From NCBI GenBank assembly GCA_018335755.1, contig JAGXRK010000050.1:124001-188000 (forward strand): a DNA stretch of 64,000 nucleotides. Reading direction: 5' to 3'. Positions 7,874 to 54,664 of this stretch are shown in pieces (positions within the stretch are counted from its first letter, which is position 1; each line of letters starts with the position of its first letter). Made by a program: the position numbers and the translations under genes. The DNA is from Ignavibacterium sp. Lineage in GTDB: Bacteria; Bacteroidota; Ignavibacteria; Ignavibacteriales; Ignavibacteriaceae. The notes beneath the pieces are model-generated. The model had not been told where the DNA came from. It ran no database searches and was given only the letters and a program-made list of their open reading frames with translations.

Positions 7874-7898
7874 TAATCTGTCTTTTATAATTAGAATA

Positions 7899-25934: not shown

Positions 25935-26033
25935 TTTTTTCTCCTGAAAATATCTGGTTACTGAAATTCAAAATTATTATCAAAAGCTGGAGAATAATTC
26001 ATCTCCCCTCAGCTGTTGAATTTGTACTAAGTC

Positions 26034-27706: not shown

Positions 27707-28831
27707 TCATCGCTTCTCAGTTTCATACGCCTTCAGGAAGTTTTGAAAAGATACTTTTGGTGTACGGTTTTCATAAAAAACACCCCAATGTTTTTCAATT
27801 TCATTAGGACTTGAATTTTCACCGCCACCTTTCCAGGGTTCATCAAAAGCTTCAAAGAGAAATGTTGTTACTTGATTTTTATCAATCCAACTGGATAATT
27901 CTAAAAGAAAATTTTCCTGTGCTGCATAACTAACTTCTCCTTTTATCAATGAGCCTTGCTGTCCGTCACCGGTTTTAGTCGAATCATATTTTGTAGCCCA
28001 ACCAATTTCACCTAAAACAATTGTCTTATCAGAGTGATATCTTTTAATCTCATTAAAGAAAATGTTGCTCATCCACTTTATTGAATTATCCAGAGTTTGC
28101 CCATTCCAGAGTGGATAAATATGAACTACAATAAAATCCACTTCAGCCGCTACAGATTTGCTTACAGGCTTATTCCAAAAATTATAGTCATCTGCAGTAG
28201 TAACAGGTACGCTTGTATTATTTCTAATTGTTCTTATGTAACGGATCAGATCATCAATATCCATTTTATGAGCTGACCAGAATACTTGTGTTTCATTTCC
28301 AACATTTATTGCTGAAATAATTTCGGAGTATTCATTCGCTAATCTTATTGCTTTCAATGTTTCCTTAACATTATCACTTTTTCTCTTAGGATTTTCTTTT
28401 TCATCTTCTAACCAAACTCCAAGCATTACTTTGACCGGCAAATTATTTTTTCTGATAACTTTCAATATTCTTTCTGAGTCTTTATCTGAGCCATAAACTC
28501 TTATCATATTCCAGTGATTAAGTATAATTTCCAGGTCCTCAAGAATTTGCGCTTCACTGGGACCCTTAATACCAGGAGCCTGACCTTTACGGTAACAGCC
28601 ATAAGAGATTGCTTTTCCAATCCACTTTCCATTGAAGTAGGGATCAAATTCCCTTGTTATAAACGGATTCTGGCGCTCAGCATTTAATTCTTTTTCCAGA
28701 GCTTGTTGTGTTATTTCCATTGAATCTGTTTTTTGTTCTTTCTGTTTTTCTTCCGCAACCTCAGGTCTCTGAGTTTGACAATTAAGAAGCATTAAAAATA
28801 TTAGGCTGACACAAAAAATTATTAGTTTCAT
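27707..28831 (-). CDS. GH17 family beta-1,3-glucanase, lipoprotein
   Basis: The start is the ATG at 28831; a TTG three codons upstream is less likely. A lipoprotein signal ends in LLNC (Cys18). The GH17 TIM barrel follows (about 65-370), with the acid/base Glu180 in NVGNET and the nucleophile Glu275 in LGEIGW. Family members cut or transfer beta-1,3-glucan chains. As a lipoprotein it acts in the periplasm or on the surface. It lies in the middle of the glucan locus beside GH16 and GH30 genes. Length of 374 residues is normal for a single-domain enzyme. Confidence 0.9.
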   Translation of the reverse strand: MKLIIFCVSLIFLMLLNCQTQRPEVAEEKQKEQKTDSMEITQQALEKELNAERQNPFITREFDPYFNGKWIGKAISYGCYRKGQAPGIKGPSEAQILEDLEIILNHWNMIRVYGSDKDSERILKVIRKNNLPVKVMLGVWLEDEKENPKRKSDNVKETLKAIRLANEYSEIISAINVGNETQVFWSAHKMDIDDLIRYIRTIRNNTSVPVTTADDYNFWNKPVSKSVAAEVDFIVVHIYPLWNGQTLDNSIKWMSNIFFNEIKRYHSDKTIVLGEIGWATKYDSTKTGDGQQGSLIKGEVSYAAQENFLLELSSWIDKNQVTTFLFEAFDEPWKGGGENSSPNEIEKHWGVFYENRTPKVSFQNFLKAYETEKR

Positions 28832-28864
28832 TTTTATCAATTAGTAAATAGTAACTTATTTTCA

Positions 28865-30031
28865 TCAAGGCAGCTTACTCACAGATACATATTCTATTTT
28901 AAAATATTGATTATCGATTGCATCTTTACCTTCACCAAGTATGTAATCTTTACAATTGTTCAATGAATTATCTGATTCGTCAAATTCATCTCCCGCCCAC
29001 TTACCGCAAAGAGTTATGTTGAATATTATTTTAAGATTAGCAAATTCGCATTTGTTTGCATCATTACAGCTTTCACACTGCCAATCTTTGTGGTTTACTT
29101 CATCGCATTGAATACTCGTCTCTAAAAATCTAACGTGATTCTTGAGAAATGATTCACTCCAGTACTCGGGCCTAGGCGATTTACTTAGAGGACCGCCATC
29201 TAATCTGACATCATAGTCAGGTTCCCAGTAGTAAAAACGAAAAGAATTGTTTTCCCATAAACAAGCAAAAGTACCTTCGGGTGAATCAACCTTATATGAT
29301 TTACCGCTGCAACCGGAATTTGGATCCGTAGCAGTTGCATTTGCACAATTAATTATAATGCCATCATCATTCCATTCTGAGTCACACATTTGCGGACACG
29401 TGTGGATAGTATTATGGATAATATTATCACCATTGATCGTTTCGATGATATCAACTTCGCCTGCAGCAGGCCAATCTGTGCAGTTAACAGGGCTTGGAGT
29501 ATTATAGAATTCTCCGGTACCGGAATATTTATCAAGAAATTCATCCGACAGAGATTGAATACTTTCTTTGTAGAGCCATTCATCCTGTCTGCTTCCGTTT
29601 AACCACCAAGCAGGCCAAACAGCTTTTTCAGATGGAAATTTTCCTTTGAAAACAAATAATATTTTTTGAACATCATCGTTTAGATTGTAGTAAGGTTTTG
29701 ATGTAAAACGGAAAGAGTCAAATCCTAAAGAATCATTTCTGTTTTTGATATAACCATAAAGACCATTGTACTCTGATAGTTTTATCATATCATCATTTAC
29801 CCATTTAACACGATCATAAATTACATCACCTTGTGTGGGATCATTATGTGGAAAGGTTGTAAAGAAATATTTTTCAACTTCTGAGAAATCATATTGTTGA
29901 TTTTCAAAATCCAAATAGAAAAAGTGATTCTCGTAATTAACTGAGTTAATGCTTTGGGCAACACACACTCCACCAGCCAAGGATTGAATTGTAAATAAAA
30001 CTAAAAGTATGTTGGCATAATTAATCATCAT
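28865..30031 (-). CDS. GH16 endo-beta-glucanase of eukaryotic (fungal Lam16A-like) type
   Basis: The 388-residue exported enzyme has a signal peptide (about 1-25) and a GH16 domain with catalytic GEVDIIE (Glu192, Asp194, Glu197) and VWPAWWLNG. Unlike the GH16 enzyme at 35821 it is rich in cysteine and carries the loop pattern HTCPQMCDSEW...NCANA...NSGCSGKSY and LCGKWAGDEFD...CKDYI. These look like the fungal laminarinase subfamily rather than bacterial laminarinases. It overlaps no neighbour and lies in line with GH17 and GH30 genes. A eukaryotic-like origin is an inference from motif memory. Confidence 0.85.
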   Translation of the reverse strand: MMINYANILLVLFTIQSLAGGVCVAQSINSVNYENHFFYLDFENQQYDFSEVEKYFFTTFPHNDPTQGDVIYDRVKWVNDDMIKLSEYNGLYGYIKNRNDSLGFDSFRFTSKPYYNLNDDVQKILFVFKGKFPSEKAVWPAWWLNGSRQDEWLYKESIQSLSDEFLDKYSGTGEFYNTPSPVNCTDWPAAGEVDIIETINGDNIIHNTIHTCPQMCDSEWNDDGIIINCANATATDPNSGCSGKSYKVDSPEGTFACLWENNSFRFYYWEPDYDVRLDGGPLSKSPRPEYWSESFLKNHVRFLETSIQCDEVNHKDWQCESCNDANKCEFANLKIIFNITLCGKWAGDEFDESDNSLNNCKDYILGEGKDAIDNQYFKIEYVSVSKLP

Positions 30032-30044
30032 CTATAAATTCCAA

Positions 30045-31718
30045 TCAAAGTTGAATGCGAACTGTCTGAACAGAATTAGGAACCATTTTTATAATTGCAT
30101 ACTGATCATCTATTTGGAGGCTAAACTCCAAAGGCTCTTTTGTTGTATTTAATAATTGCACTGTAAGAAGATTTGAATCATTTATCGTTGCACAGGTATG
30201 CAATGCATCACTATCTAACCCGCTTAAAGTTTTTTCAGTTTGTACTGCTTTATCACCCGGTCTTATTGTTCTGCTGAATTGTGTAAGAATATAGTAGATA
30301 GGAGTATAATAGACATGTTTGCTTTCTGTATCTATCATTATAGGTGCGCCACAAAAATTACCGACATGATTTGGTCCACCTCTTTGATCTAAAACAACAT
30401 TCCAATCAATCCAGCCCTTTAACCAATGATCAATACTTACAATTATGTTTCTGGCGTATCTGTGAACCGGAGTGTATATTGGATGGTCTTCCATTATGAC
30501 AGCTTTCCATGTTGCAGAGTAAGCCCAATCTGTTGCATTCTCATTCCACCAGAACACATCATTGTCAAACCATTCTGTTTCTTTAAAGCGATGCGGATCT
30601 AAAATACCGCCAGGTGCATCTTTGCCTAAATCATCAATGCATCCTTCAGAGTGTAAAATGGCGTGATCAGGAAATTTTGCATTAACTCTTTCAAAAACAT
30701 CTTCATAAACTTTGTTTGTGCTTTCGTACCAGTGCACAGCCGAACCATACACATATTTTGCAGTTTCCTTATCACCCAATATCACATCTGCCCAGTGCTC
30801 TAACCCATCTCTGTTTTGATCATAGATGAGAAGTTTCACATCTTCAAATCCATTCTCAGTTAATTTTGGCCCCAGATATTTTTTAATAAACTGATTTTGC
30901 GATTCGGGAGTAAAATGCATGCTTTCCCACTGCCCATTATTACCATGCGGCTCATTGACAGGAGTGATTCCCCAAATTTTAACTCCTTCAGAGTTATACT
31001 CCTTTAAATACCTTATTAAATAATCTGCATAAGTTTCTTCGTATTCAGGTTTAAGTTTACCTCCGGTGCCTTGATGATTATTTTCCGGTGTTCCTTTAAT
31101 GAACCAATCTTTAATATCCTTCATCCATGATGGCGCAGTCCATGCAGAAGCAACAATTCTTAGTTCATTATCTTTTTGCTGATTTTTAATTTCAAGCGCT
31201 TCTTCTATCATCGGCAGCAGATCATAAGTTGGATCTTTTATCCCGGGATATTTCTTAGGATCGAATCCTTCTTTATCAGGAGCAATAGTGAAACTTTTTA
31301 ATTCTGTATCACCTGCTTTATCAAGGTAAGAATACTTCCCTTCGACACAAAAATCACAGGAGCCAATATGAGTTCTGGTAAGAGAAAAATTTGCACCTTT
31401 ATCACTAAAAATTTTCTCCATTACTTCTGCGCGTTTTTCCTTATCCAGATGTGCTAACACAAATGCAGAAGCCTCTGTAAAGGATGAGCCTATTCCATCT
31501 ATTTCTTGCCTGGTAATTGAAGGTTTAATTTTAATAATAGTTCCTTCAAAAGCTTCACCTTCAATAAAAGTTATACTTTGCTTCTCAGCAATTTTATCTC
31601 CTGCTTCTGAAGTAACAAGATTTTCTTTTGTAACAAGAATTTTTTTATCCTGATCACACGAAATAAAAACAGCACCAGCAAACAAAACTGCAGGCAGAAT
31701 GAATAATATTTTTAACAT
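30045..31718 (-). CDS. GH30 family glycosidase, lipoprotein
   Basis: The ATG at 31718 has a GGAG site in front; the TTG at 31733 would cover that site. The 557 residues begin with a lipoprotein signal (VFISC, Cys21). The GH30 TIM barrel has the acid/base Glu256 in NEPHG and the nucleophile Glu358 in HSEG, and a C-terminal beta-sandwich (about 480-557). GGSFTEASA-like GIGSSFTEASAFVL at 75-88 is the usual GH30_1/GH30_3 start. In this locus it would remove beta-1,6 branches or act as a beta-glucosidase on laminarin; the subfamily cannot be fixed here. Confidence 0.9.
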   Translation of the reverse strand: MLKILFILPAVLFAGAVFISCDQDKKILVTKENLVTSEAGDKIAEKQSITFIEGEAFEGTIIKIKPSITRQEIDGIGSSFTEASAFVLAHLDKEKRAEVMEKIFSDKGANFSLTRTHIGSCDFCVEGKYSYLDKAGDTELKSFTIAPDKEGFDPKKYPGIKDPTYDLLPMIEEALEIKNQQKDNELRIVASAWTAPSWMKDIKDWFIKGTPENNHQGTGGKLKPEYEETYADYLIRYLKEYNSEGVKIWGITPVNEPHGNNGQWESMHFTPESQNQFIKKYLGPKLTENGFEDVKLLIYDQNRDGLEHWADVILGDKETAKYVYGSAVHWYESTNKVYEDVFERVNAKFPDHAILHSEGCIDDLGKDAPGGILDPHRFKETEWFDNDVFWWNENATDWAYSATWKAVIMEDHPIYTPVHRYARNIIVSIDHWLKGWIDWNVVLDQRGGPNHVGNFCGAPIMIDTESKHVYYTPIYYILTQFSRTIRPGDKAVQTEKTLSGLDSDALHTCATINDSNLLTVQLLNTTKEPLEFSLQIDDQYAIIKMVPNSVQTVRIQL

Positions 31719-31740
31719 AACCTGTATCTCCAAAAGATTC

Positions 31741-32640
31741 TCAACTATTAATATTTCCGAACTTCAGAATTCCGCCTTTATCCCACAAACCCCAGTAAGC
31801 TCCAACATCACCTTCTTTTTCTATCTTCCAGGTTTCATCAAAACTTGAAAAATAGAATACATCAATGTTTTCCTGATTTGCCCATGAAAAAGTATTGATG
31901 AAGTAGCGAAGGGCATTTTCATATGATGGAACGGCATTACGATCGGGGGTACCTAAGTTTGGCCATCCTGTTTCGCTGATAATTACTTTTTTACCCTTTG
32001 CAGCAGAAACCGCCTGGTAATACATGTTTTTTAAGTAAGCCAAAGAATGTTCTAATGGATAACCTTCCCAGAAGGGATAACAATTTGCAAGGATCACATC
32101 ACATACGTTGCAAATAAGGGGATGGTTTACAAATTCAAAATACGCATCAACATAACCTACAGGAACATTGGTAATTTTCTGTTTGACTTTTTGAATATAC
32201 TTGATTATTTCATCTTCAGTAAGATCACCGCGAAGCAGTACTTCGTTACCAACAGCAATTATATCAGCGTAACCATCTCTGGCTACTTTAATTATACTTT
32301 CAATTTCTGCTTCATTTTTTTCTTTATTGTTTCCAAGCCACGCTCCTACAAGTGTTTTTATGCCATGCTTATGGGCGATTTTTGGAATAAGCTCATTACC
32401 ATCAACACAGGAAAATGATCTTACCCACTTAACGTAGGGTTTGATAATTTTCATTCTTGTTTCTATTTGTTCTTCGGAAATAATAGAACCCGGACTTTGA
32501 TTTTCTAAATAAGCACTGAAAGAAATGCCGTGAATACCTTGCTTTAATATTTTCAAAAAAGCTGATTCAAGATCGGCTTTACTTAAGTCCGAAATATCAA
32601 TACCGCTTAATACGCTGTGTTTAGATCCGCTTCGTGACAA
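31741..32640 (-). CDS. GH17 family glucan hydrolase or transglycosylase, cytoplasmic
   Basis: The 299-residue GH17 enzyme has the acid/base Glu133 in AVGNEV and the nucleophile Glu223 in ISETGWPN. It starts at a TTG (32640) with AGAGGA upstream; the next ATG would remove the first barrel strand. It has no signal peptide, so it should work in the cytoplasm, unlike its lipoprotein relative at 27707. With the putative phosphorylase and the MFS symporter it suggests that short beta-1,3-oligosaccharides are taken in and cut inside the cell. Confidence 0.88.
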   Translation of the reverse strand: MSRSGSKHSVLSGIDISDLSKADLESAFLKILKQGIHGISFSAYLENQSPGSIISEEQIETRMKIIKPYVKWVRSFSCVDGNELIPKIAHKHGIKTLVGAWLGNNKEKNEAEIESIIKVARDGYADIIAVGNEVLLRGDLTEDEIIKYIQKVKQKITNVPVGYVDAYFEFVNHPLICNVCDVILANCYPFWEGYPLEHSLAYLKNMYYQAVSAAKGKKVIISETGWPNLGTPDRNAVPSYENALRYFINTFSWANQENIDVFYFSSFDETWKIEKEGDVGAYWGLWDKGGILKFGNINS

Positions 32641-33186: not shown

Positions 33187-34233
33187 TCACATCACTAAAT
33201 ATTTTTCCAAAATATTTTCATAACCCCAGGCTCTTAATTGTCTTGACCAGCCGCCAAGATTTTCAATTGTTACAGGTATAGTTTTTAATCTTATTATTTC
33301 TTTTACTTTTTTATTCAAATAAATTTTATCTATTACTGTTTGAACAGATACTTCCCCCCACATAAAGGTTGGCTGACCTAATAATACCTGCACGTAATTC
33401 TTTTTGATATATTCGAGTTGCATAGGAAGTGCATCAACAGCTACGATTTTTATTTTGCCGGGATCAATAATGTCTTTTAATTTTTCTCCGAAGAATGCCC
33501 AACTTCCGACCATGGCCCAGCCCTTAATGTCAGGATTTTGCTTCATTACCTCATTCATCACTGCAATAGCATCTGCTTCAGTTTCAGGATGAAAATATGT
33601 TCCGACAATCGTTATATCAGGATAGTCAGCAGCAGCTGTCAAAATTCCTTTAACTCTTTCCTGAAGATTATTCGCCATCTTGTTACCACCCAGAATTGCG
33701 ATTTTGCTCTTGCTATCAATCAGTCCTGCTAATTCATTCATTAAAGTTTTACCCATTTCAAAATCATCAGGACCGTAAAAAGCAAATCGTTTTGAATTAG
33801 GAGCGTCACTGTCAAAAGTCATTACCTCTACACCATTATCAACAGCGTAATTGATTGCTTGTGTAAGTGTATCTTCATCAGAGCAGGAAACAATTATAGC
33901 TCTTGTACCATTTTTTACTACATTACGTATTATTTCAGCCTGCTCAGAAGCGCTTTCATTTTCAGGAGTCTGCCAATCAATAATTACTTTTAGCTTGCTG
34001 TACTTTTCAGTGAGTGCTTCTGCTGTTTTAATTGCCCCTGTTTTTGCCGATAAGAATACCGGATTTGATGAACTCTTTGCTATCATTGTGATGACAATTG
34101 CTTCTTTATCGTTTATGCCTTCACTATCCGCATCAGAATCACCGCAGCCGGATATTACTGCCATTAATGCAGTTAAGAGTAAAGCTGATAGCTGTTTTAC
34201 TATTCTTGTCTTAATTAAAAATCTTTCTTTCAT
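33187..34233 (-). CDS. sugar-binding periplasmic lipoprotein (LacI/ribose-binding type)
   Basis: The start is taken at the ATG at 34233, with AGGAAA upstream; a TTG at 34257 is weaker. The 348 residues begin with a lipoprotein signal ending in VISGC. The rest is a type 1 periplasmic binding fold (Peripla_BP_4): ITMIAKSSSNPVFLSAKTGA, TFDSDAPNSKRFAFYG and VAVDALPMQL. Normally it would feed an ABC sugar transporter, but no ATPase or permease gene is found in this window. The neighbour is an MFS symporter. Confidence 0.85.
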   Translation of the reverse strand: MKERFLIKTRIVKQLSALLLTALMAVISGCGDSDADSEGINDKEAIVITMIAKSSSNPVFLSAKTGAIKTAEALTEKYSKLKVIIDWQTPENESASEQAEIIRNVVKNGTRAIIVSCSDEDTLTQAINYAVDNGVEVMTFDSDAPNSKRFAFYGPDDFEMGKTLMNELAGLIDSKSKIAILGGNKMANNLQERVKGILTAAADYPDITIVGTYFHPETEADAIAVMNEVMKQNPDIKGWAMVGSWAFFGEKLKDIIDPGKIKIVAVDALPMQLEYIKKNYVQVLLGQPTFMWGEVSVQTVIDKIYLNKKVKEIIRLKTIPVTIENLGGWSRQLRAWGYENILEKYLVM

Positions 34234-34253
34234 CTTATTTCCTAAAAGTAATA

Positions 34254-35726
34254 TCAAGTACTCGGTGCAATTTTTTCAGTATTAACTAATTTACTTCGAC
34301 GCTTTTCTAATTCGCTTCTTATTTCATAAGATCTTTCTTCAGTTATTTTAAAGGAGGCAACGGAGTAAATTGCGATCAGTGCACCAACCGCAGGAATACC
34401 AACATCAACAACTCTCATCCAGAAAAAAGTGCTCGAAGTTTGAGCGCCGCCAAAATCAACAACGAAACCGGTACCATTTAACAGAAAACCTGATAGACCG
34501 AATGCGAGAGCCATTCCGAGCTTTACCATCCACCAGTATATCGATCCAAACATACCTTCACGTCTTTCACCGGTTTCCAGTTCATCAAGGTCACATACAT
34601 CTGCAATCATTGATCCCATTAACGTAAACAGTGCACCCATTCCAACTGCTATAAACGGTGCAGGAATAACCACTATCCACGGAACCATTGGATTATAACA
34701 AAACCATTTCAAAAGGCTGCCAAACAACATTATAGATGTAGCGATGATGAATGTTTTTCTTTTACCAATCCTTGATGAAATCCAGGTAACTCCTGCGATT
34801 GCTGCTAACGTTGAAATTGTTGTAACTGTTCCAAACAAACCCATGTAGGTAGCACCCATACTTTTATCGCCGCCGCATACATAAAATATTGTAATGTAAG
34901 AACTGAATGCTCCGACCAGCATAATTCCGTTAAACAGGAAAAATGTACCAGCACACAGTTTAAGAAATTCAATACGCTTTATAGTTATCAGTAATCCTTT
35001 AAAGAAAAGAGCAACATTCTTTTTTAAGCCTTCCACAAATTTGTTTTTTATTTTTACTTCCTTGTCCTTTCCAACAAAACGCTCTTTAGTAAATATTGCA
35101 GGCATGATCCCAACCACTGCAACAAAAACACCTATTATAATCGCAAGAGTACGGGCACCTTGAACCGAGTCAGAGAAGAATCTGTCATTTTCCATAAATG
35201 CGTAGAACCATGGAAGTGTTATCCACGCGAACTGTCCCATAAAATTCATAACACCCATCAAGCGTGTTCGTTCGTGATAATCTGAGGTAAGCTCGTAACC
35301 CAGGGCAACCCATGGCGTTGCAAACATTGTATAGAATAAATAGAAGATGATTGAGCCGATAAGAAAGAACCAGAAATAAAACATCTCGCTGTAGCCTTCA
35401 GGAAGCTGCCACATTAAGGCAAATACCAGTCCGACAAAGATTGCACCTATAAAAATATATGGTCTGCGCCTGCCGTATTTTGAACGGGTATTATCCGAAA
35501 TGTATCCCATTACAGGATCTGTTAATGCGTCAGTCAATCGAGGTATAGCTTGAAGTGTACCAACAAGAGCGGGATTTATTCCGAGACCCACATTCAATAC
35601 AATGGACATATATCCGATTGCACCGCCAAGCAGGTTATTTACAATTGATCCAAGTCCGTAAGCAAACTTTTGACCGTTTGGTATTTTATCTTTAGGCGCT
35701 GTTTTATGAATTTCTTTACTGCTCAT
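34254..35726 (-). CDS. GPH-type MFS sugar:cation symporter
   Basis: The 490-residue protein has about 12 membrane helices and belongs to the glycoside-pentoside-hexuronide (MelB-like) group of the major facilitator superfamily: the DALTDPVMGYISDNTRSKYGRR loop region after helix 2 is the diagnostic piece (motif DxxxDPxxGxxxDxTxSRxGRRRP). It would bring short oligosaccharides or glucose across the inner membrane. It lies immediately upstream of the sugar-binding lipoprotein gene in the glucan locus, so laminari-oligosaccharides are the inferred cargo. Confidence 0.9.
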   Translation of the reverse strand: MSSKEIHKTAPKDKIPNGQKFAYGLGSIVNNLLGGAIGYMSIVLNVGLGINPALVGTLQAIPRLTDALTDPVMGYISDNTRSKYGRRRPYIFIGAIFVGLVFALMWQLPEGYSEMFYFWFFLIGSIIFYLFYTMFATPWVALGYELTSDYHERTRLMGVMNFMGQFAWITLPWFYAFMENDRFFSDSVQGARTLAIIIGVFVAVVGIMPAIFTKERFVGKDKEVKIKNKFVEGLKKNVALFFKGLLITIKRIEFLKLCAGTFFLFNGIMLVGAFSSYITIFYVCGGDKSMGATYMGLFGTVTTISTLAAIAGVTWISSRIGKRKTFIIATSIMLFGSLLKWFCYNPMVPWIVVIPAPFIAVGMGALFTLMGSMIADVCDLDELETGERREGMFGSIYWWMVKLGMALAFGLSGFLLNGTGFVVDFGGAQTSSTFFWMRVVDVGIPAVGALIAIYSVASFKITEERSYEIRSELEKRRSKLVNTEKIAPST

Positions 35727-35820: not shown

Positions 35821-36648
35821 TTATTGTTCTTTATATACTCTTACATAATCAATCACCATAGCTTGCGGAAAAGGAGTCTGGCTTGTAGGGAAGCCGACAT
35901 AGTTACCACCAACTGCAACATTAAGAATTATAAAGAAAGGTTTATCAAACACCCATTCACCGGGTAAATCTTCAGGTTTAATTTCCTGATAGAGAACATC
36001 ATCCACATAAAATCGTATGTAATCTTGAGCCCATTCAACAGCAAAGAGATGGAAATCAACATCAAATCTATTGTTTTCAAGACCAAAGCTTTTTGAAATG
36101 CCGCCACCACCCGAATAACCCGGACCGTGAATAGTTGCATGTATAAGATTGGGTTGTTGACCGCGGTATTCCATAATATCTATTTCACCAGATTGAGGCC
36201 ATCCAACAGTTTCAACATCAGAACCAAGAAGCCAGAATGCAGGCCATATTCCAGGACCCCAGGGCATTTTAATCCTTGCTTCAAATCTGCCGTAAGTTTG
36301 TTCAAATAATCCTTGAGTTTTTATTCTTGCTGATGTGAAGGGCTGACCACCAAAAGATTCTCTTCTGGCTGTAACTAGTAAATTACCTGTTCCATCAAGT
36401 GATACATTCTCTTGACGGTCAGTGTAATACTGCAATTCCTGATTCCCCCAACCATTAGCACCTGTTCCAATATCAAAAGTCCATTTTGCTGGATCAATAA
36501 TCTGACCGGCAGGTCCATCAAATTCATCCTGCCATACAAGCTGCCAATTTGGAACTTCCGGGTCAAGTGGATTGTCACATGAAGGAACGAATAAAAGTAT
36601 AACCAATAAAATTATTAGTGGAAAAAAGTTTTTGTTATGGGCTTTCAT
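35821..36648 (-). CDS. GH16 laminarinase-type endoglucanase, lipoprotein
   Basis: The ATG at 36648 follows an AGGAGA site; the ATG at 36675 would cover it. The 275-residue enzyme has a lipoprotein signal (VPSC, Cys24) and one GH16 jelly roll with the catalytic GEIDIME (Glu155, Asp157, Glu160), WPAFWLLG and FFIILNVAVGGNY, the standard bacterial beta-1,3(4)-glucanase layout. It would cut beta-1,3-glucan internally at the cell surface or in the periplasm. It differs clearly from the Cys-rich GH16 at 28865. Confidence 0.93.
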   Translation of the reverse strand: MKAHNKNFFPLIILLVILLFVPSCDNPLDPEVPNWQLVWQDEFDGPAGQIIDPAKWTFDIGTGANGWGNQELQYYTDRQENVSLDGTGNLLVTARRESFGGQPFTSARIKTQGLFEQTYGRFEARIKMPWGPGIWPAFWLLGSDVETVGWPQSGEIDIMEYRGQQPNLIHATIHGPGYSGGGGISKSFGLENNRFDVDFHLFAVEWAQDYIRFYVDDVLYQEIKPEDLPGEWVFDKPFFIILNVAVGGNYVGFPTSQTPFPQAMVIDYVRVYKEQ

Positions 36649-36690
36649 AATTTCTCCTGTCACTTCTGTTTTCATTAAAAAATTTATTCT

Positions 36691-37938
36691 TTATTTCAAT
36701 ACAGCCGGAACTGAATTCTCTCTTAATATTTTTGGATCGATAAAAGCTTGCTCAATTGCCATAGTTGCTGCACCAATGGCGATTCCTTTAGAACCGAGAG
36801 TACTTGTAACCAATTTAGTTTTAGTAACACTGCTAACAAGAGCACACAAATCTATTTTTTCCTGAATAGGATTAATAACTAACTCTCCGAGCCGTGATAA
36901 ACTTCCACCGATTATGATCATATCCGGATTCATTAAATTAACAAGACTTGTTATTGCACTGGTTAAATAGGTTGTTGCTTCATTAACTATTTGTATAGCC
37001 AATGGATCTCCATCTAATGCAGCATTTTCGATATCGATAATAGTTGGGCTTCCATTCAATAAATGACTATCAGGATATAGGTTTGAAAGTGTTCCGATTC
37101 TTTCTTTAAGAGCCCATGCAGAAATAACAGTTGCCAGGCATCCTCTCAATCCGCAGCCGCATAATCTTCCATTCGGATCTATGGGCATATGGCTCATTTC
37201 GCCCGCGATACCCTTAGAGCCGCGATAAAGTTTTCCACCAAAAATGTAACCGGCTCCAACTCCGCTAGATATTTTAATATAAATAAGATCATTTACATTC
37301 TTGCCTGCACCCCACCAATTTTCAGCTAAGGCACCAAGGTTAGCATCATTATCCAGATAGACTGGGACACCATATTTTTCACGCAATCTTTCCAATCCAC
37401 TTTTACCATGCCAGGCTGGAATTATTGTTTCTGATAAATACTCAGGGTGGATTGGGTCAACGGGACTTGGCACAGATACTCCTATACTCAAAAGCATATT
37501 AGGACCATGCTTCATGGTTGATAGACATTCATTACAAAGTTCATCTATTACGTTAAAAGTACCTTCAGCATCTTCCCTTACCGGGAAATTCCTCTCTTTC
37601 CAGAGGAGTAACTTACCGCGTAAATTAGTCATAGCTACCGAAACGTGAGTTGCGCCTATATCAATACCAAGAATCACTTTTGCATCATCCTGAAACTGAA
37701 GTAAGATTGGTTTTCTGCCGCCGCTGGATTTACCAATTCCGACTTCGGCAACCAATCCGGTTGGTAATATTTCTTTAATTATTTCCGTAACTGTTGAACG
37801 TGATAAATCTAACTGGCGCGAAATCTCAGCTCTTGAAATTTGATGTTCACGCCAGATTAATCTAAGAACGGAATCCTTTAACAAAAGAGGATTATGTTGA
37901 TCTATTTTATTTTCCGCTGTGCTGTTTATTCTATGCAT
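36691..37938 (-). CDS. ROK family transcriptional regulator
   Basis: The 415-residue protein has an N-terminal winged helix-turn-helix (about 25-85, RAEISRQLDLSRSTVTEIIKE) and a ROK sugar-kinase fold (about 90-400, LGIDIGATHVSVAMTN; zinc-type CGCGLRGC). In active ROK kinases and many NagC/XylR regulators the Cys motif is followed by a conserved Glu; here the sequence is CLATVIS, so kinase activity is unlikely. It lies within the glucan locus, 43 bases upstream of the GH16 lipoprotein gene, and is the natural candidate for its regulator, responding to glucose or a gluco-oligosaccharide. Operators were not found with certainty. Confidence 0.9.
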   Translation of the reverse strand: MHRINSTAENKIDQHNPLLLKDSVLRLIWREHQISRAEISRQLDLSRSTVTEIIKEILPTGLVAEVGIGKSSGGRKPILLQFQDDAKVILGIDIGATHVSVAMTNLRGKLLLWKERNFPVREDAEGTFNVIDELCNECLSTMKHGPNMLLSIGVSVPSPVDPIHPEYLSETIIPAWHGKSGLERLREKYGVPVYLDNDANLGALAENWWGAGKNVNDLIYIKISSGVGAGYIFGGKLYRGSKGIAGEMSHMPIDPNGRLCGCGLRGCLATVISAWALKERIGTLSNLYPDSHLLNGSPTIIDIENAALDGDPLAIQIVNEATTYLTSAITSLVNLMNPDMIIIGGSLSRLGELVINPIQEKIDLCALVSSVTKTKLVTSTLGSKGIAIGAATMAIEQAFIDPKILRENSVPAVLK

Positions 37939-37969: not shown

Positions 37970-39904
37970 TTATTTATGAAACATTATGTTGTCTACATAA
38001 ACAGTATTGGGGTCACCTGAAATAATCAACTGAGCTAAATGACCCTTTGTTGTCAACCCTGTAAAATTTGTTATTGGAATATCAAACCTGATCCAGTTTC
38101 CTGTTTGCAATGCAGGAGTTGAGTTTGCATTAAATGTAAGTTCGTGCTCTGTATCATCTCCACCGCCAAAAGCACCATCAGCTCCGAAATCAACAAGTTT
38201 GATTCTGAAAACGGCTGGAAGCGCTGTTGGATCTGGCGTCCAGATGTCCATATAAAAATGTGTCATTGAAGTTGCATCAATAGTTTGGCCGATAAATTCA
38301 ATTCCAACAAATACCAAATTTGTGTATAACTTAGTATCATTTCCTGCTATTTGAACATCTGCTACATCTGCCTGATCCCAAACTGCAGACCAGGTATCAA
38401 CCGGTACATTAGTGTATGCATTGCTGAATAGTGAAATTACATCACTCGCAGGAAAAGTTGGTGTTGGTGCTGGTGTTGTTGGTACTGCAGGTGTGGTTCC
38501 ACCTGAACTATAGAAATAAACATTATCTACAAATACAGTATTAGGATCACCTGAAATAACCAGCTGTGCCAAATTCTTTCTGGTAGTTAGTCCGGTAAAG
38601 GCTGACAAAGGAATATCCAACTGAACCCATTGCCTTGTCGCCAGTGCAGGATTAGAGTTGGCAGTAAAAGTGAGTTCGTGAGAAACATCATCTCCGCCTC
38701 CGAAAACCCCATCTGCACCAAAATCAACTAACAATACTTTAAATGCTGCCGGAGGTGCTGTTGGATCCGGTGTCCAGATATCCATATGAAAATGTGTCAT
38801 CTGGGTTGCATCAATAGTCTGAGATGCAAACTCTATACCGTTAAAATTAAGATTTGTATAAAGTTTTACATCATCACCATTAATTTGAAGTTCCTGTAAT
38901 ACGGCAGTCGAGAATAACCAACCCGTTGCCCAGGTATCAACAGGTACATTTGTATATGCATTACTGAATAACGATATAACATTTTCTGCAGGAACGATTG
39001 GAACCGGTGCTCGAGGTGGTAATTCAGCTGTATTTACAGTTATAGAACCTGCTGCGGTCTTATCTCCAAATTTTGCCGTTACTGTAGCAGAACCCATTCC
39101 AACAATAGATATCTGCCCATTGTCATTAACTGTAGCTACTGATTCATTAGAAGATAAATAATTAAAATAATTTGGCGCTACGTTCACCCGTTGATCGGTA
39201 CCATAGGGCATATTAAATAATACATAAGTGTCACCTATTGTGAGTGTTTGACCAATAAATGCAGTTATATTTTGATTTTGCTCATTTAGTATTACAGGTC
39301 TTGGATGTGCAATAGTGCCGAGTTTTTCAAATTTAACTTCGTCAAACCAAATGGTGTAACCTTTACCATCCTCAGGTCCTTCAGAATAGAAAAACATTCC
39401 ACGTTCTGATTTCCATCGGGATTGTTCGGGTATTGGTATATAGTATTTTTTCCAGTTAGTGTTTACGGCTAAACCAGTTATGGTGGTTTCATTTCTGGAT
39501 AAACCAAGATCATTGCCAATTCCTACTATATCAATATTTGCAGGCTGACTGGCTTTAGCCCAGAATGTTAAAGCATCGTAGCCCGAAAGATCTCTTCCAA
39601 CATCTGTGAAATAAACTCCTCCGGCATAAGCTCCCAAAGGATCTTCAAAATCCGGAACTTCTATTCGCATTGAAGATGTTCCATTGTACTTTACTTCTTT
39701 ATCAACATCGAAGGCAGTAACCTTTGAGCCTCCGAAAGCAGCATAATTAAGACCGCTACTAAATCCGTCAATGAATACTTCAGGTAAATCGGGATATGCT
39801 GCAGGTTCTAAAAGATCGGGATCTCTTTCACAACCAGTAAGCAGCAATACAGATATTATAATGAAAAAAAATGTTGTTTGATATAAATTATATTTCTTTA
39901 TCAT
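37970..39904 (-). CDS. multi-domain carbohydrate-binding-like lipoprotein
   Basis: The start is the ATG at 39904, with TTGGAG upstream. The 644 residues comprise a lipoprotein signal (LLLTGC), a CBM11-like jelly roll (about 35-190), a bacterial Ig-like BIG2 domain (about 200-290, SVATVNDNGQISIVGMGSATVTAKFG), and two tandem copies of a module starting VISLFSNAYTNVPVDTW (about 305-465 and 485-644). These copies are related to the modules in the T9SS proteins at 24582 and 26034. It has no catalytic motif and no sorting domain. It could act as a surface glucan-binding protein in the place of SusD/SusE. It is coded just after the glycosidase-barrel fusion. Confidence 0.85.
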   Translation of the reverse strand: MIKKYNLYQTTFFFIIISVLLLTGCERDPDLLEPAAYPDLPEVFIDGFSSGLNYAAFGGSKVTAFDVDKEVKYNGTSSMRIEVPDFEDPLGAYAGGVYFTDVGRDLSGYDALTFWAKASQPANIDIVGIGNDLGLSRNETTITGLAVNTNWKKYYIPIPEQSRWKSERGMFFYSEGPEDGKGYTIWFDEVKFEKLGTIAHPRPVILNEQNQNITAFIGQTLTIGDTYVLFNMPYGTDQRVNVAPNYFNYLSSNESVATVNDNGQISIVGMGSATVTAKFGDKTAAGSITVNTAELPPRAPVPIVPAENVISLFSNAYTNVPVDTWATGWLFSTAVLQELQINGDDVKLYTNLNFNGIEFASQTIDATQMTHFHMDIWTPDPTAPPAAFKVLLVDFGADGVFGGGDDVSHELTFTANSNPALATRQWVQLDIPLSAFTGLTTRKNLAQLVISGDPNTVFVDNVYFYSSGGTTPAVPTTPAPTPTFPASDVISLFSNAYTNVPVDTWSAVWDQADVADVQIAGNDTKLYTNLVFVGIEFIGQTIDATSMTHFYMDIWTPDPTALPAVFRIKLVDFGADGAFGGGDDTEHELTFNANSTPALQTGNWIRFDIPITNFTGLTTKGHLAQLIISGDPNTVYVDNIMFHK

Positions 39905-39928
39905 TGGTAACTCCAATAAATATTTAAA

Positions 39929-42900
39929 TTACATGCCAAAATTAAAATGCAGGTATGTTCTTATTTCCCACTCATTGCCGTCTGCATAACCGGGAACCGT
40001 AGGATCACAAACAGGTACGCCTAATACATTAAGATTTTTTATTGGACAGTAACGCGGTGAGTATTGATCCAGTGAGCGCCAGGTGCCGCGAATTCCTAAT
40101 CTTGTTTGTGGTAAATCAAACCATTCAGGCAATTCTAAATTAATCGATACATCTGCAATCAATTGAAGTGGGTAGGTTAAGTTAAAATCTCTGTGATAAT
40201 CATAAGGACCCCAATCGTTAACTTTTATCTGTGTTATTACTTTAAATTGATTCATTACAAAACGAATATCACCACCATATCTATGAATAACTCTGTCATT
40301 ACTACCGTTGGCTTGACCCAGTCCTCCATAAAGATTAGCTATTAATCCAAAATCAGGACTCAACTTAGAAACAATACGTGAATGGACTTCCCACAGATCG
40401 CGAGCCGGAGGAGCGCCAGGAAAGGCAAAAACTGTTCTGCCATCAGCTAGAATACCTATTGAAGCATCCCTTGTTGTGGGATGATGTCTGAAAACATATC
40501 CGGCACTAATTGCAAATTTTGCATCTTCTCTTTCATCACTATCCCAGGCATACATCCAGGTTGCCGGGGTAGGGTCATAAGTAATTAATAGTTCACCAGC
40601 TGTAGTTTCCCGATTTCCTCTTACTGCAAAAGGATCAGATAAAATATTTCTTGGTCTACCGGGAGCCGGAACGGTGTTTGGGATAGGCCCTTCAATTGGT
40701 TTCTGCCACATGAAATTTGGTGCTATTTGAATATCACCAAAAATTACAGCTAGACCTGTAAGTACACTGTATTGATTTCCCAAACCGCTGTTTTTCAATC
40801 TCCAACCTGTAAATGTAAGAGTTTGATTGACCCCTCCATCAGCAACTAATCCCTGTGCTGAACCTTCAGCATACCAATTCCATCTTCCACTTTGAAGTGT
40901 GAATTTAACCTTTCCACCAAATGCATCAGAATCTTTTATTTGATCCTGAAGAATTCTATAATTGTCCTCATCACCAGCAGCTATTTGAAATGTCTCTCCT
41001 TTTTTTGTACTGCCGGACCAGATACCGCCCACTTCCATTCCGAAGACACCATATTTAGCAGCAAGGTGTAATGTTGCTCTTCTTGTTGGTGGAAGAGGAA
41101 CTGCAAAAGAACTTACTGCCTCACCTTGTTCATCAAGATCTTCATGAAAAATTCCTGTAATTTTTAGCAGACCAAGACTTCTGCTGTATTTCAACAATAC
41201 TGCAGGATTAGCTCCCCACCAAAGTTCCGGACCAAAAGCAACTTTCAATCCTTCAAGCTGTTTTTTGCCTGCAATCTCAAACCCGAACGGTGCATTGGCA
41301 TTGTATATATCTATATTTGGCCCATAATTAGCTTCGGGATAAAGACCAAAAAAATCACCTTCGTAACCCCAATGGTAATGACCGGTTCTATAAAAAGCGT
41401 CCAGATTAAACAAGGTTTGATCCCACGAAACACTTGCACTGTAAACTTTTATTCTATCTATACTTTGAAGAGTAAGTTGATCGTCTGGTGTTAATACAGT
41501 TTTAGGACGCCCTCTATTTTCATAAAATATTTCATCAATTGGATTAGTCGGAACATTTCCCAAAACATTTATGGCAACCTTGCCAATTATATTTGCAACA
41601 GGTTGAGATTCTAACTGAGCATAGAAAGATTGCTTATGATCAAAACCTAAAAACGCCGGGTATTGAGATCCCATATCTGTTCTTTTAGTTGGAGTGGTTA
41701 TCTTATCCCCTCCGGTGCCATATGTCTCGAGTTCAAAGCGTAAACCACTTAAACGTACGGCACTAAATTGAGAGGTTTGTAAAGCTGCTTTGTCCCCTCT
41801 GGCTTTTAATAGATAAACCATCGGATCCAGCTGATCAATCATTTTTTCAATATAATATGCATCCATCTTGCCATCTAAAGGATTTATTTTATGTACATCC
41901 ATTAGTGCATAGTAAGCAGACCGGGGAAATAATTCATAGTATCCGAATGCATCAGTAGGTCCTTTTGCACAGATACCAAACCACTCTTCATTCATATTGT
42001 TTTCACCCTCAACATAATCTTCCTCATAACCACCATTAGACCAGGATGCGTGTGTGTCGTGCACATCCAAATTACTTTCCTGCAAATACTTCCACCAGCC
42101 ATCACTAAATTGGAAGGTCATACCTCCGAGTGAAATTCCCGTTTTACCATTGCCATAAGCATGCTGATATATTTCTTTCCAATTTCCAAGTTTATATCTT
42201 GTCTGCATCAATTGATCTTCACGCATTTCCAAAGCATTAAAAGCATCGGAACCAAATTCAGTAAATAATAATGGTGCATCTAACTCTTTCTTGACTCTAT
42301 CAAACAGATCAGTAAAAGAAATACCTCTGTATGCGTTCACACCAAAGACATCCATATCAGTGACTTCTTCAGCAATGATGTCAAGAAATAGTAAATCCCC
42401 ATTACAGATTGATACAGGATGGTTCTTATCAAATTTCTTGATCTCAAGAATTCCCTCATTAAAGAGCTTATACATATGTCTTGCTCTTACTGATTCCAGA
42501 GTTTCTCCTACAGGGATATCTTCTGTCTCAGCCCCACCCCAAAACAGACCATAATTATTTTCATTACCAAGAAGCCACATTAATAGTCCGGGTACATCTT
42601 TAAATTCTTCAGCTAATGAGTTCACTTCACTTAGTAGTACTTCTCTCGTTTTCGGATCAGCATAGTCAGTGTTTGGTATATAAACACCGTCTATAGTGAC
42701 GCCATATCGTCCAAACGAATGATTCAAAACGGTGTAAATACCATAATTTTTGTAAATGTACTCGACCCATTTGGGTTGAATTCCTGTATAAACACGAATT
42801 ACGTTCACACCCATATTACGAAGCAGAGACATTTCACTATGGAGAGCTCTTTTGATAAAATCATCAGACTTTGTCCAAAGACTGTATGTATAATTAGTCC

Positions 42901-43087
42901 CGATTGGAAAGTAATCCCAGTTCATTCCGTTTACTATAAAGTCTTTACCATTAACAACTAATTTGGCACCTTTTTCATCTTTTACAACTTTAACTTTATC
43001 TACCTGTGCGGCAGTAACTGAAAATAAAATTGAAAAGAAATAAATCAGGATAGTTAACCAATTGAATTTCCGTTGATTTAAGGCCAT
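39929..43087 (-). CDS. glycosidase TIM barrel fused to an outer-membrane beta-barrel
   Basis: The 1052-residue protein has a signal peptide (about 1-27) and a GH2/GH5-like TIM barrel (about 30-420): acid/base Asn175-Glu176 in LLGNENN and nucleophile Glu277 in FTEFGSD. From about residue 430 to the end it is a series of amphipathic beta strands with short turns and aromatic belts (SAVRLSGLRFELETYG, GELLITYDPTPATWMY, end YLHFNFGM), which looks like a porin-type barrel. GGAGG precedes the ATG. It is the first gene of the glucan locus. Surface cutting plus passage of products through the attached barrel is inferred; the enzyme family and specificity are uncertain. Confidence 0.85.
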   Translation of the reverse strand: MALNQRKFNWLTILIYFFSILFSVTAAQVDKVKVVKDEKGAKLVVNGKDFIVNGMNWDYFPIGTNYTYSLWTKSDDFIKRALHSEMSLLRNMGVNVIRVYTGIQPKWVEYIYKNYGIYTVLNHSFGRYGVTIDGVYIPNTDYADPKTREVLLSEVNSLAEEFKDVPGLLMWLLGNENNYGLFWGGAETEDIPVGETLESVRARHMYKLFNEGILEIKKFDKNHPVSICNGDLLFLDIIAEEVTDMDVFGVNAYRGISFTDLFDRVKKELDAPLLFTEFGSDAFNALEMREDQLMQTRYKLGNWKEIYQHAYGNGKTGISLGGMTFQFSDGWWKYLQESNLDVHDTHASWSNGGYEEDYVEGENNMNEEWFGICAKGPTDAFGYYELFPRSAYYALMDVHKINPLDGKMDAYYIEKMIDQLDPMVYLLKARGDKAALQTSQFSAVRLSGLRFELETYGTGGDKITTPTKRTDMGSQYPAFLGFDHKQSFYAQLESQPVANIIGKVAINVLGNVPTNPIDEIFYENRGRPKTVLTPDDQLTLQSIDRIKVYSASVSWDQTLFNLDAFYRTGHYHWGYEGDFFGLYPEANYGPNIDIYNANAPFGFEIAGKKQLEGLKVAFGPELWWGANPAVLLKYSRSLGLLKITGIFHEDLDEQGEAVSSFAVPLPPTRRATLHLAAKYGVFGMEVGGIWSGSTKKGETFQIAAGDEDNYRILQDQIKDSDAFGGKVKFTLQSGRWNWYAEGSAQGLVADGGVNQTLTFTGWRLKNSGLGNQYSVLTGLAVIFGDIQIAPNFMWQKPIEGPIPNTVPAPGRPRNILSDPFAVRGNRETTAGELLITYDPTPATWMYAWDSDEREDAKFAISAGYVFRHHPTTRDASIGILADGRTVFAFPGAPPARDLWEVHSRIVSKLSPDFGLIANLYGGLGQANGSNDRVIHRYGGDIRFVMNQFKVITQIKVNDWGPYDYHRDFNLTYPLQLIADVSINLELPEWFDLPQTRLGIRGTWRSLDQYSPRYCPIKNLNVLGVPVCDPTVPGYADGNEWEIRTYLHFNFGM

Positions 43088-53149: not shown

Positions 53150-54664
53150 TCATTTCATCAATATCATTTTACGACTTAAAGATTTATCTCCAATTTGGAT
53201 TTTATACAGGTAAACACCGGATGACAATTCACTTCCATTAAATTCTACTTCATAATTTCCCGGCTGCTGTTCTTCATTTACAAGTAAAGCAACTTCATTT
53301 CCTAAAATATTATATACTTTTAAGGTTACCAACAAATTGTCATTTCGAGAAGCTTGCGACGAGAAATCCTTTAGATTCCTCATTTCGTTCGGAATGACAA
53401 ATCGTATTTTTGTTACAGGATTAAAAGGATTAGGATAATTCTGCTCAAGTCTGAATTCATAAAGCTGAGATTTTGAATCTTTTATTCCTGTGGGTATATC
53501 TACAATAAAATTTAGTGTGTTGCTGTATGTAAAAGTAGAATCAGATGTAAACGCTTTTACCTTCCAGAAATAGTTTCCATCCTGAAGCTCTGTTGAAAAA
53601 GTTGTATCAGAGATACTGCCTGATTGAAATATTATATTATTAAACATATCATCTGAAGCAATCAATAATTTATAATTTACTTCATCATAAAGGTTTAATG
53701 AATAAGTATTATTCCAGATAAATGTAATACTGGTTTCAGCTAACGTATCAGTCGGCGAAATTAGAGTAAATTCTATCGGAACCAATGGTTTCAATTCATA
53801 TTGAAATAATATTGAAGTATCAGTCTGTGCCTCATTACCAAAAGCATATTTGAAATATGTTGTATCCTCCTTCAGGAATAAATTAAAAATACTGGTCAGA
53901 TATTTCCGCGTTGTTGTAAGCTGTTGTGCAGGTGTCAAATATCCATTCGGATCAGTCCAATCCCATATGCGGGTATCCATAAACTTCGTATGATTTCCGC
54001 CCTTAATGACTGGTAAACTTTTAATCGGCAGGGCATTAGTAAACATTGGGAGCTGATTTGTATTAACCGGTGTAATTCCATCGTTCTGCGCAGATATTAA
54101 ATATACGACACCATGTATCTGGTTCATTACCGATATTGCAGATGGATTAGTTTCCGAAGCTGCTAAAGGTGTTGCAACTGTTATTGAGATATCATTTGCT
54201 GCAGCAAGCAGACTGGCACCTCCGCCCATTGAGTGACCTGATAACCCTGTTTTTGTAATGTCAATTAAATTATAAAATCGTGAGCCGGGATTTTGATTTT
54301 GTGATTTGATATAGTCAGCACAAAAGATAAGATCATAACCAAGCTGCAGATGATTGTTGTCCGGAAATTGAGGAGCTATTATAATATATCCATAGCTAGC
54401 AAGATGTTTAAAAATAGAAATATAGTAGCTGTTCTGCATAAAGAAGCCGTGGCCGAATGCTATAATCTGATAAGGGTGATTTAAGGTATCAATCTGAGCT
54501 TCAATGCCTTCTTCGAATGATGGGTAGTAGATTATGGTATTAAGATTTCTTCCATTGCGATTTAATGATTCACTTGTCCATCCTGCCTGAAGCGGCCCTG
54601 GATTTTCAGGCTGAGCGAATAAAAAGGAAGTTATCAATAACGGAAATAAAATGATCTTTTTCAC
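53150..54664 (-). CDS. T9SS-sorted alpha/beta hydrolase (dienelactone hydrolase/chlorophyllase-like)
   Basis: The 504-residue protein starts at a GTG (54664) and has a signal peptide (1-17), an alpha/beta hydrolase domain (about 25-280) with the nucleophile Ser145 in GHSMGGGAS, an FnIII-like domain (about 295-395) and a T9SS sorting domain (about 405-504, LEQNYPNPFNPVTKI). The sorting domain is longer than usual because a 64-bp palindromic repeat is translated in it, giving NEMRNLKDFSSQASRNDN between TKIRFVIP and VTLKVYN. The substrate is unknown; the fold suits an esterase or a lipase-like enzyme. Confidence 0.85.
   Translation of the reverse strand: MKKIILFPLLITSFLFAQPENPGPLQAGWTSESLNRNGRNLNTIIYYPSFEEGIEAQIDTLNHPYQIIAFGHGFFMQNSYYISIFKHLASYGYIIIAPQFPDNNHLQLGYDLIFCADYIKSQNQNPGSRFYNLIDITKTGLSGHSMGGGASLLAAANDISITVATPLAASETNPSAISVMNQIHGVVYLISAQNDGITPVNTNQLPMFTNALPIKSLPVIKGGNHTKFMDTRIWDWTDPNGYLTPAQQLTTTRKYLTSIFNLFLKEDTTYFKYAFGNEAQTDTSILFQYELKPLVPIEFTLISPTDTLAETSITFIWNNTYSLNLYDEVNYKLLIASDDMFNNIIFQSGSISDTTFSTELQDGNYFWKVKAFTSDSTFTYSNTLNFIVDIPTGIKDSKSQLYEFRLEQNYPNPFNPVTKIRFVIPNEMRNLKDFSSQASRNDNLLVTLKVYNILGNEVALLVNEEQQPGNYEVEFNGSELSSGVYLYKIQIGDKSLSRKMILMK
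53337..53400. repeat. palindromic repeat inserted in a coding region
   Basis: The 64-bp element begins TTGTCATTTCGAGAAGCTTG and ends CGTTCGGAATGACAA. Its ends TTGTCATTTCGA and TCGGAATGACAA are complementary with one mismatch. It resembles a widespread intergenic repeat of this bacterial group. Here it lies in frame inside the sorting domain of the hydrolase. Confidence 0.75.

Follow-up and report, generated by a model that had tools for sequence, protein, structure and literature searches.

We analysed a stretch of 64,000 nucleotides from Ignavibacterium sp. (assembly GCA_018335755.1, contig JAGXRK010000050.1, positions 124,001 to 188,000), referred to below as the window. One of its genes, at 39929–43087 on the minus strand, encodes a protein of 1052 amino acids in which a glycosidase-type TIM barrel is fused to a predicted 22-stranded outer-membrane barrel; it is the first gene of a run of 14 genes on the same strand. 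We consider it somewhat probable that the protein is an uptake pore for β-1,3-glucan fragments, in which the predicted 22-stranded barrel carries a built-in periplasmic glucanase.

The fusion gene and its relatives

The fusion is real and is neither a chance event nor an assembly accident. The open reading frame at 39929–43087 is a single frame of 1052 residues with an ATG start, and the plus-strand translation of the same interval has stops throughout. Relatives are conserved from end to end, with E ≤ 1e-3 in 5742 of the 7998 proteins scored, and the 120 relatives listed are 1027–1105 residues long. A scan of species genomes yielded at least 580 relatives, from which the best 80 were kept; the titles of these 80 name Ignavibacteriales, Bacteroidales, Flavobacterium, Saprospiraceae, Balneolaceae and Rhodothermales, and further candidate division GN15, Zixiibacteriota and Gemmatimonadaceae. 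The fusion is also present in Polaribacter. Some relatives carry source names such as “glycosidase” or “glycoside hydrolase family 2 TIM barrel-domain containing protein”. The sequence-only reading had proposed that a glycosidase TIM barrel is fused to an outer-membrane-type β-barrel, and this is borne out by the single frame, the Pfam match of the TIM barrel and the strands predicted at residues 444–1050.

Relatives were sampled from 395 genomes of the phylum, and more copies came from searches of the class and order. The 155 loci classified comprised 122 fusions, 27 enzyme-only copies, 3 fragments and 3 that were too distant; removal of duplicates left 118 fusion loci and 27 enzyme-only loci. 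In the window, the N-terminus (residues 1–27; 43007–43087, minus strand) looks like a signal peptide by eye, with cleavage near TAA-Q at about residue 27, and forms a helix at residues 2–25 in the AlphaFold model. A simple regular expression found no lipobox in 121 of the 122 fusions. Modelling on 41 close sequences gave a predicted local distance difference test (pLDDT) of 69 and a predicted template-modelling score (pTM) of 0.50; a diverse alignment of 125 rows gave values of 86 and 0.76.

The enzyme domain

In the model, residues 28–405 (41873–43006, minus strand) form a (β/α)8 barrel with Asn-Glu after strand β-4 and Glu at strand β-7, the hallmarks of glycoside hydrolase (GH) clan GH-A. 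The predicted acid/base motif, Asn175-Glu176 (42560–42565, minus strand), follows strand β-4 (168–173), and the predicted nucleophile, Glu277 (42257–42259, minus strand), lies on strand β-7 (273–278). Asn175, Glu176 and Glu277 are invariant in 122/122 fusions, the window's own copy included, and in 27/27 enzyme-only copies. Glu176 and Glu277 had been picked out as active-site motifs from the sequence alone, and their placement on β-4 and β-7 and their invariance in all 149 copies uphold that choice.

The Pfam TIM-barrel model Glyco_hydro_2_C matched residues 41–298 at 28.5 bits (cut-off 21), and NCBIfam gave a weak galactosidase match at residues 10–181; neither database had a match in the final 600 residues. 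We rejected membership in GH2: only PF02836 matched, and about 25 residues lie between the signal peptide and the first TIM strand, where GH2 enzymes have sugar-binding and Ig-like domains preceding the TIM barrel. The nearest folds are those of GH157, the best match, and of the β-1,3-glucanase family GH158. The fold also matches yeast Gas2, a glucanosyltransferase, and the relative P0081 has a precomputed match to PF03198 (GH72). No GH157 chain matched by sequence at E ≤ 0.1, although GH157 is the best fold match, and the solved chain of LaGH157 (9g4n) has 528 residues against the 1052 of the fusion. GH158 (BuGH158, 6pal; GH158(Pro), 9oro) is linked to the fusion by sequence only at an E of about 1e-3 over part of the TIM barrel; profiles gave an E of 0.001 for each structure, and the single sequence gave 0.0022 for 9oro and 0.048 for 6pal. 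According to the passages on BuGH158 in PMC7157763, the counterparts of the predicted catalytic residues are N136/E137 and E220, and that enzyme carries an Ig-like domain, whereas the fusion carries an outer-membrane barrel after the enzyme.

The barrel domain

Residues 444–1050 (39938–41758, minus strand) consist, in the model, of antiparallel strands and connecting loops, which together are predicted to make a closed outer-membrane barrel of 22 strands; the fold, strand number, closure and periplasmic side given here are all predictions. The long loops hold two short hairpins (529–540 and 699–716) and the 601–621 pair, and the final strand of the chain, EWEIRTYLHFNF, is of the alternating hydrophobic type. 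Hydropathy alternation, scored on a first set of 24 strands, was 1.05 against a mean of 0.71 (standard deviation 0.11) in 2000 within-strand shuffles, a difference of about 3 standard deviations; the largest shuffled value, 1.08, exceeded the observed one. The first count of 24 strands was reduced to 22, since 699–704 and 711–716 form a hairpin within a single outer loop.

Covariation was measured on 364 sequences with an effective number of 138 (367 unique sequences minus 3 fragments that share C-terminal gaps). With the 209 non-adjacent strand pairs as background, 19 of the 21 adjacent pairs scored above its 95th percentile, and S1–S22, the pair that would close the barrel, reached 2.38, higher than any non-adjacent pair (maximum 1.96). 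Covariation thus links strand 1 to strand 22, and the barrel is therefore probably closed. Several observations weigh against this picture, however. The parallel score of S1–S22, 2.03, is near the antiparallel one, so that the direction is not sharply resolved; the strands for the closing-pair test were taken from the model; and a first covariation run with the 3 fragment rows still in gave no closure signal. In addition, S4–S5 (1.36) and S5–S6 (1.25) are weak while S4–S6 reaches 1.96, and the strand number of 22 therefore rests partly on turn parity.

The barrel has no sequence match in the PDB at E ≤ 10. The window's copy has no Pfam match at E ≤ 10 either, and one of 11 relatives had a match at chance level (E 0.15). 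By sequence, it appears to be a membrane-protein family without a Pfam entry or a sequence-related solved structure. Foldseek with the whole model returned BtuB3G3, FepA and OmpF at E values from 2e-8 to 9e-8; the list from VIA-align, which covers mainly residues 24–419, held no outer-membrane barrels. Homology to SusC and TonB-dependent transporters (TBDT) was rejected at an hhalign value of 0.3% against 10 SusC/TBDT, obtained with a profile that was shallow (11 rows). In the fusion, PF07715, PF00593 and TIGR04056 were unmatched at E ≤ 0.001, and neither a plug nor CarbopepD_reg was found. Membership in the Omp85/PlpD group was also rejected, given the lack of a POTRA or Omp85 Pfam match, a helix that runs straight into strand 1 and the 22 predicted strands, and so was membership among type Va autotransporters, as the window's barrel has no Pfam translocator domain. 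The barrel was not seen as a free-standing protein: in a scan that scored at most 3 candidates per genome, its profile matched in 35 of the 395 genomes, namely in 33 fusions, 1 broken fusion and 1 remnant.

Side of the membrane

The outer connections between strands have a median length of 29 residues and the inner ones a median of 2, with two exceptions (21 and 12). The even predicted strand number and this pattern of long loops and short turns place both barrel ends in the periplasm, and the N-terminus, being on the short-turn side, would hold the enzyme under the periplasmic mouth. Conserved linker helices at residues 410–440 (41768–41860, minus strand) lead straight into barrel strand 1, and helix 422–440 stops three residues ahead of that strand in the model; enzyme-only copies end near here. 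The sequence-only reading had described a surface enzyme tied to its own pore, and had named a periplasmic location as evidence against itself. The predicted topology contradicts only the surface half of that idea.

We therefore regard a periplasmic enzyme as the better prediction and a surface enzyme as unlikely. For the TIM domain to pass out through the barrel in the manner of an autotransporter and act with a surface lipoprotein, the product of the following gene (37970–39916), is in our view quite improbable. Autotransporter linkers do have a helix leading into the barrel, as helix 422–440 leads into strand 1 here, and the enzyme and the lipoprotein would then share one side; yet both ends of the barrel are on the side of the short turns. 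The lipoprotein signals point the same way. A simple regular expression found a lipobox in 13 of 32 short copies, and two or more acidic residues at positions +2 to +7 occurred in 3 of these 13, so that the acidic start was missing in 10, as against 90 of 101 partner lipoproteins. For other cluster proteins, the counts were 55/75 for GH16, 5/32 for GH30 and 3/18 for the GH17-like protein. An acidic start is described as a surface-export signal of Bacteroidetes lipoproteins in the relevant passages of PMC5080379, and the few acidic starts of the enzyme-only copies agree with a periplasmic enzyme.

The patatin-Omp85 protein PlpD resembles the fusion in having a C-terminal barrel and an N-terminal periplasmic enzyme. 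It was long believed to export its enzyme, but the experiments reported in the passages of PMC11116518 on its topology found that the barrel keeps the enzyme in the periplasm. PlpD differs from the fusion in its 16-stranded Omp85 barrel, POTRA domain and patatin, where the fusion has 22 predicted strands, no POTRA match and a glycosidase fold.

Enzyme-only copies and the partner lipoprotein

In the 395 genomes there were 33 fusions (one interrupted by the end of a contig) and 9 enzyme-only genes in which the strong match stops at residues 422–496. Where the loci contained enough DNA, the next gene downstream encoded a homologue of the lipoprotein for 97 of 109 fusions and for 0 of 22 enzyme-only copies; anywhere at the locus, the homologue was found with 111 of 118 fusions and 0 of 27 enzyme-only copies. 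At these loci the lipoprotein thus accompanies fusions and never enzyme-only copies, and therefore travels with the barrel. GH16 also drops without the barrel (100/118 fusion against 7/27 enzyme-only loci), whereas GH149 does not (77/118 against 22/27). These gene contents suggest that the enzyme, GH149 and the importer can persist without the barrel.

In a TIM-domain tree built from 122 fusions, 25 enzyme-only copies of at least 420 amino acids and 3 distant outgroup rows, the enzyme-only copies are nested among the fusions, with 7 changes, at least 5 of them on supported branches. This pattern reads as repeated loss of the barrel, although the deep branches are weak. Barrel remnants of 32–57 residues were found with the enzyme-only genes G119 and G418 and the broken copy G415; in G119, the remnant comes directly after the stop and is itself decayed. 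The lipoprotein followed the barrel in 3.6 of 5 independent supported-branch pairs on average and never changed in the opposite direction. Against the strength of this association, only 2–4 of the 5 tree-aware pairs were informative, all in one direction and too few to reach significance (median p 0.125).

A barrel that moves nothing, and only holds a periplasmic β-1,3-glucanase at the outer membrane next to pores that are separate from it, seems rather doubtful to us. That enzyme-only copies work somewhere without a barrel, and that the lipobox in the 13 short copies noted above could let a lipid anchor replace the barrel, would fit such a role. On the other hand, 22 strands far exceed what an anchor needs, an anchor does not predict the absence of the partner lipoprotein from all 27 enzyme-only loci, and 114 of the 118 fusion loci lack SusD in the DNA fetched.

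Some copies deserve separate mention. Genome G418 (L179, L164) has one fusion and one enzyme-only copy with a barrel remnant. At L128 (1271–3222), a fusion is broken after residue 308 and ends near residue 640, and a further reading frame just downstream looks transposase-like by eye. Distant enzyme-only relatives at 25–27% identity occur at L129 (8148–9203), L130 (7713–9131) and L131 (8131–9525); the first lies between GH17 and GH149 genes and the other two near ROK and GH16 genes.

The glucan cluster around the fusion

The 14 minus-strand genes occupy 43087 to 20995, and no gap between them exceeds 122 bases; their order is fusion, lipoprotein, ROK repressor, GH16, MFS_2, sugar-binding protein, Usp, GH17, GH30, a 388-residue protein, GH17-like protein, two proteins with type IX secretion system (T9SS) tails, and GH149. 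In the lipoprotein, the lipobox cysteine is followed by E-R-D-P-D (C-E-R-D-P-D); it has a Big-like (Ig-like) domain and is putatively glycan-binding, with Pfam matches to Big and CBM30 below cut-off. The ROK-family repressor (36691–37938; PF00480) has a winged helix. The GH16 lipoprotein (35821–36675; PF00722) is a probable surface endo-β-1,3-glucanase, both its location and its activity being inferred, and the MFS_2 sugar transporter (34254–35726; PF13347) is a probable inner-membrane importer. Then follow a periplasmic sugar-binding protein (33187–34257; PF13407), a GH17-type enzyme (31741–32640; PF00332, E 6e-11), a GH30-type enzyme (30045–31733; PF02055), and a GH17-like protein (27707–28840; PF00332 below cut-off, E 2e-5). 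The last gene encodes a predicted cytoplasmic GH149 β-1,3-glucan phosphorylase (20995–24459; NCBIfam NF058639, 1619 bits, cut-off 1150), and none of 107 GH149 homologues has a lipobox.

Judged from these matches, the cluster looks catabolic for β-1,3-glucan. Across the 118 distinct fusion loci, GH16 was found at 100, GH149 at 77, MFS at 57 and GH30 at 54, which are lower bounds, as many loci end at contig ends. This bears on an export or remodelling role, in which the barrel would release β-glucan of the cell's own making and the TIM domain would trim or transglycosylate it, in parallel with exporters of the PgaA/BcsC type. The TIM-fold match to Gas2 and the PF03198 match of P0081 suit such a role, which is nonetheless highly improbable given a cluster with a GH149 phosphorylase, an MFS transporter, GH16, GH17 and GH30 enzymes and a ROK repressor, and with no glycosyltransferase among the matches of its genes at the thresholds used; the sugar-binding protein gave a sub-threshold echo of WecG/TagA.

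Three cluster proteins stand apart. The 388-residue protein (28865–30031, minus strand) matched nothing in Pfam or NCBIfam at E ≤ 0.001. The two adjacent T9SS-tailed proteins (24582–27632, minus strand) have no recognised catalytic domain, and parts of them are similar to homologues of the partner lipoprotein. In four Flavobacterium loci that we viewed, a protein of 933–950 residues lies upstream of the fusion, and the one tested was a Y_Y_Y/propeller regulator.

Relation to SusC/SusD

In Bacteroidota, large glycans are taken up mainly via TonB-powered SusC/SusD, and TonB-dependent transporters have 22 strands, the number also predicted for the fusion's barrel. The fusion is like SusC/SusD in its position in a glucan cluster, its large outer-membrane barrel and the adjoining lipoprotein gene, and unlike it in having no plug, no CarbopepD_reg and no match to the SusC model, with a partner lipoprotein that is not SusD (no match of the SusD Pfam model to 37970–39916 at E ≤ 10). 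The whole genome, which is 99.98% complete with 7.47% contamination, has no SusD and no SusC above cut-off. At the loci, SusC and SusD were sought in the DNA fetched with local profiles, each grown from one SusC or one SusD; Pfam and NCBIfam confirmed both genes in L121, and in L120 they confirmed SusD. SusD was near 4/118 fusion and 4/27 enzyme-only loci (Fisher p 0.04, uncorrected for relatedness), with no signal in the tree-aware pairs, and SusC was near 6/118 and 6/27.

A barrel standing in for SusCD is plausible, as the sequence-only reading had supposed, at the level of the cluster: SusD and SusC are rare at fusion loci, and this genome has no SusD and no SusC above cut-off. The stand-in does not extend to a one-for-one exchange, and we rejected clean complementarity with SusCD, because 23 of the 27 enzyme-only loci also lack SusD nearby. 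Further points count against such a stand-in. Genome-wide, SusD is absent from 7 of the 29 genomes on the enzyme-only list, a list that includes G418 with both forms and G415 with the broken copy, and from 6 of 42 fusion genomes; enzyme-only copies without SusD imply that something besides SusCD can replace the barrel. The genome also has 25 weaker TonB-receptor-like matches; four genes of this kind are in the window, outside the cluster.

Proposed mechanism

In the mechanism that we favour, the substrate, glycan binding, transport, its direction and its energy source are inferred. The lipoprotein at 37970–39916 would hold glucan at the outer mouth while the GH16 lipoprotein cuts it outside the cell. 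Pieces would cross the plug-less barrel to the TIM domain, hung below the periplasmic mouth by a short helix, which would cut them on arrival. Further shortening would fall to the GH30 and GH17 enzymes, import to the MFS transporter and phosphorolysis to GH149. Such immediate cleavage by the TIM domain would keep an inward gradient without TonB and stop products from diffusing out. Against this uptake scheme, there is no visible source of energy, some form of gating would be required for a wide open pore, and the glycan binding of the lipoprotein is drawn from the sub-threshold CBM30 match (E 0.01).

Similar clusters in the literature

Laminarin, a β-1,3-glucan, is abundant as a storage sugar of algae. 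GH149 clusters of carbohydrate-active enzymes and variant 1 laminarin polysaccharide utilization loci (PULs) have the same neighbours, GH149, GH16, GH17, GH30 and MFS, and the passages describing them leave the barrel undescribed (PMC5827456, PMC6246565, PMC10108472). The corresponding part of PMC5827456 reports GH149 clusters with or without susCD. Passages of PMC10108472 place an unclassified “GH0” with GH149, GH16, GH17 and GH30 in laminarin PULs of Aurantivirga, Prosiliicoccus and Polaribacter, among the top 10% expressed in one genome, and describe laminarin clusters with the same neighbours as highly expressed in North Sea blooms. That this GH0 is the fusion family is a guess on our part. 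Since PULs are called there only with susCD or susC, the fusion could, if the guess is right, coexist with susC. Among the open-access papers listed, no title or abstract described such a fusion or SusCD-free uptake.

Other genes in the window

The protein at 10345–11508 (minus strand) joins a response-regulator receiver domain (PF00072) to a glycine-cleavage H-protein domain (PF01597), a pairing of which we know no other example. At 4962–10271 (plus strand), a flavin amine oxidoreductase, an RPE65-family protein (PF03055, E 2e-114) and a TonB-dependent receptor stand in a row, and 53150–54664 (minus strand) encodes a PETase/chlorophyllase-like hydrolase (PF12740, E 6e-13) with a T9SS sorting tail (PF18962).

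Significance

We tentatively suggest, as possible but less firmly held than uptake itself, that the fusion is a plug-less glycan importer with its own hydrolase, made of a new barrel family and a surface binding lipoprotein. Taken in full, and with the same reserve, it would be a stand-in for SusC/SusD across β-1,3-glucan clusters of the Fibrobacteres–Chlorobi–Bacteroidetes (FCB) group, driven by hydrolysis at the pore exit and not by TonB. The natural enzyme-only copies offer a ready comparison set. If the proposal is true, a widespread plug-less barrel with a built-in glucanase, found in 33 of 395 genomes of the phylum, would be another route of glycan uptake.

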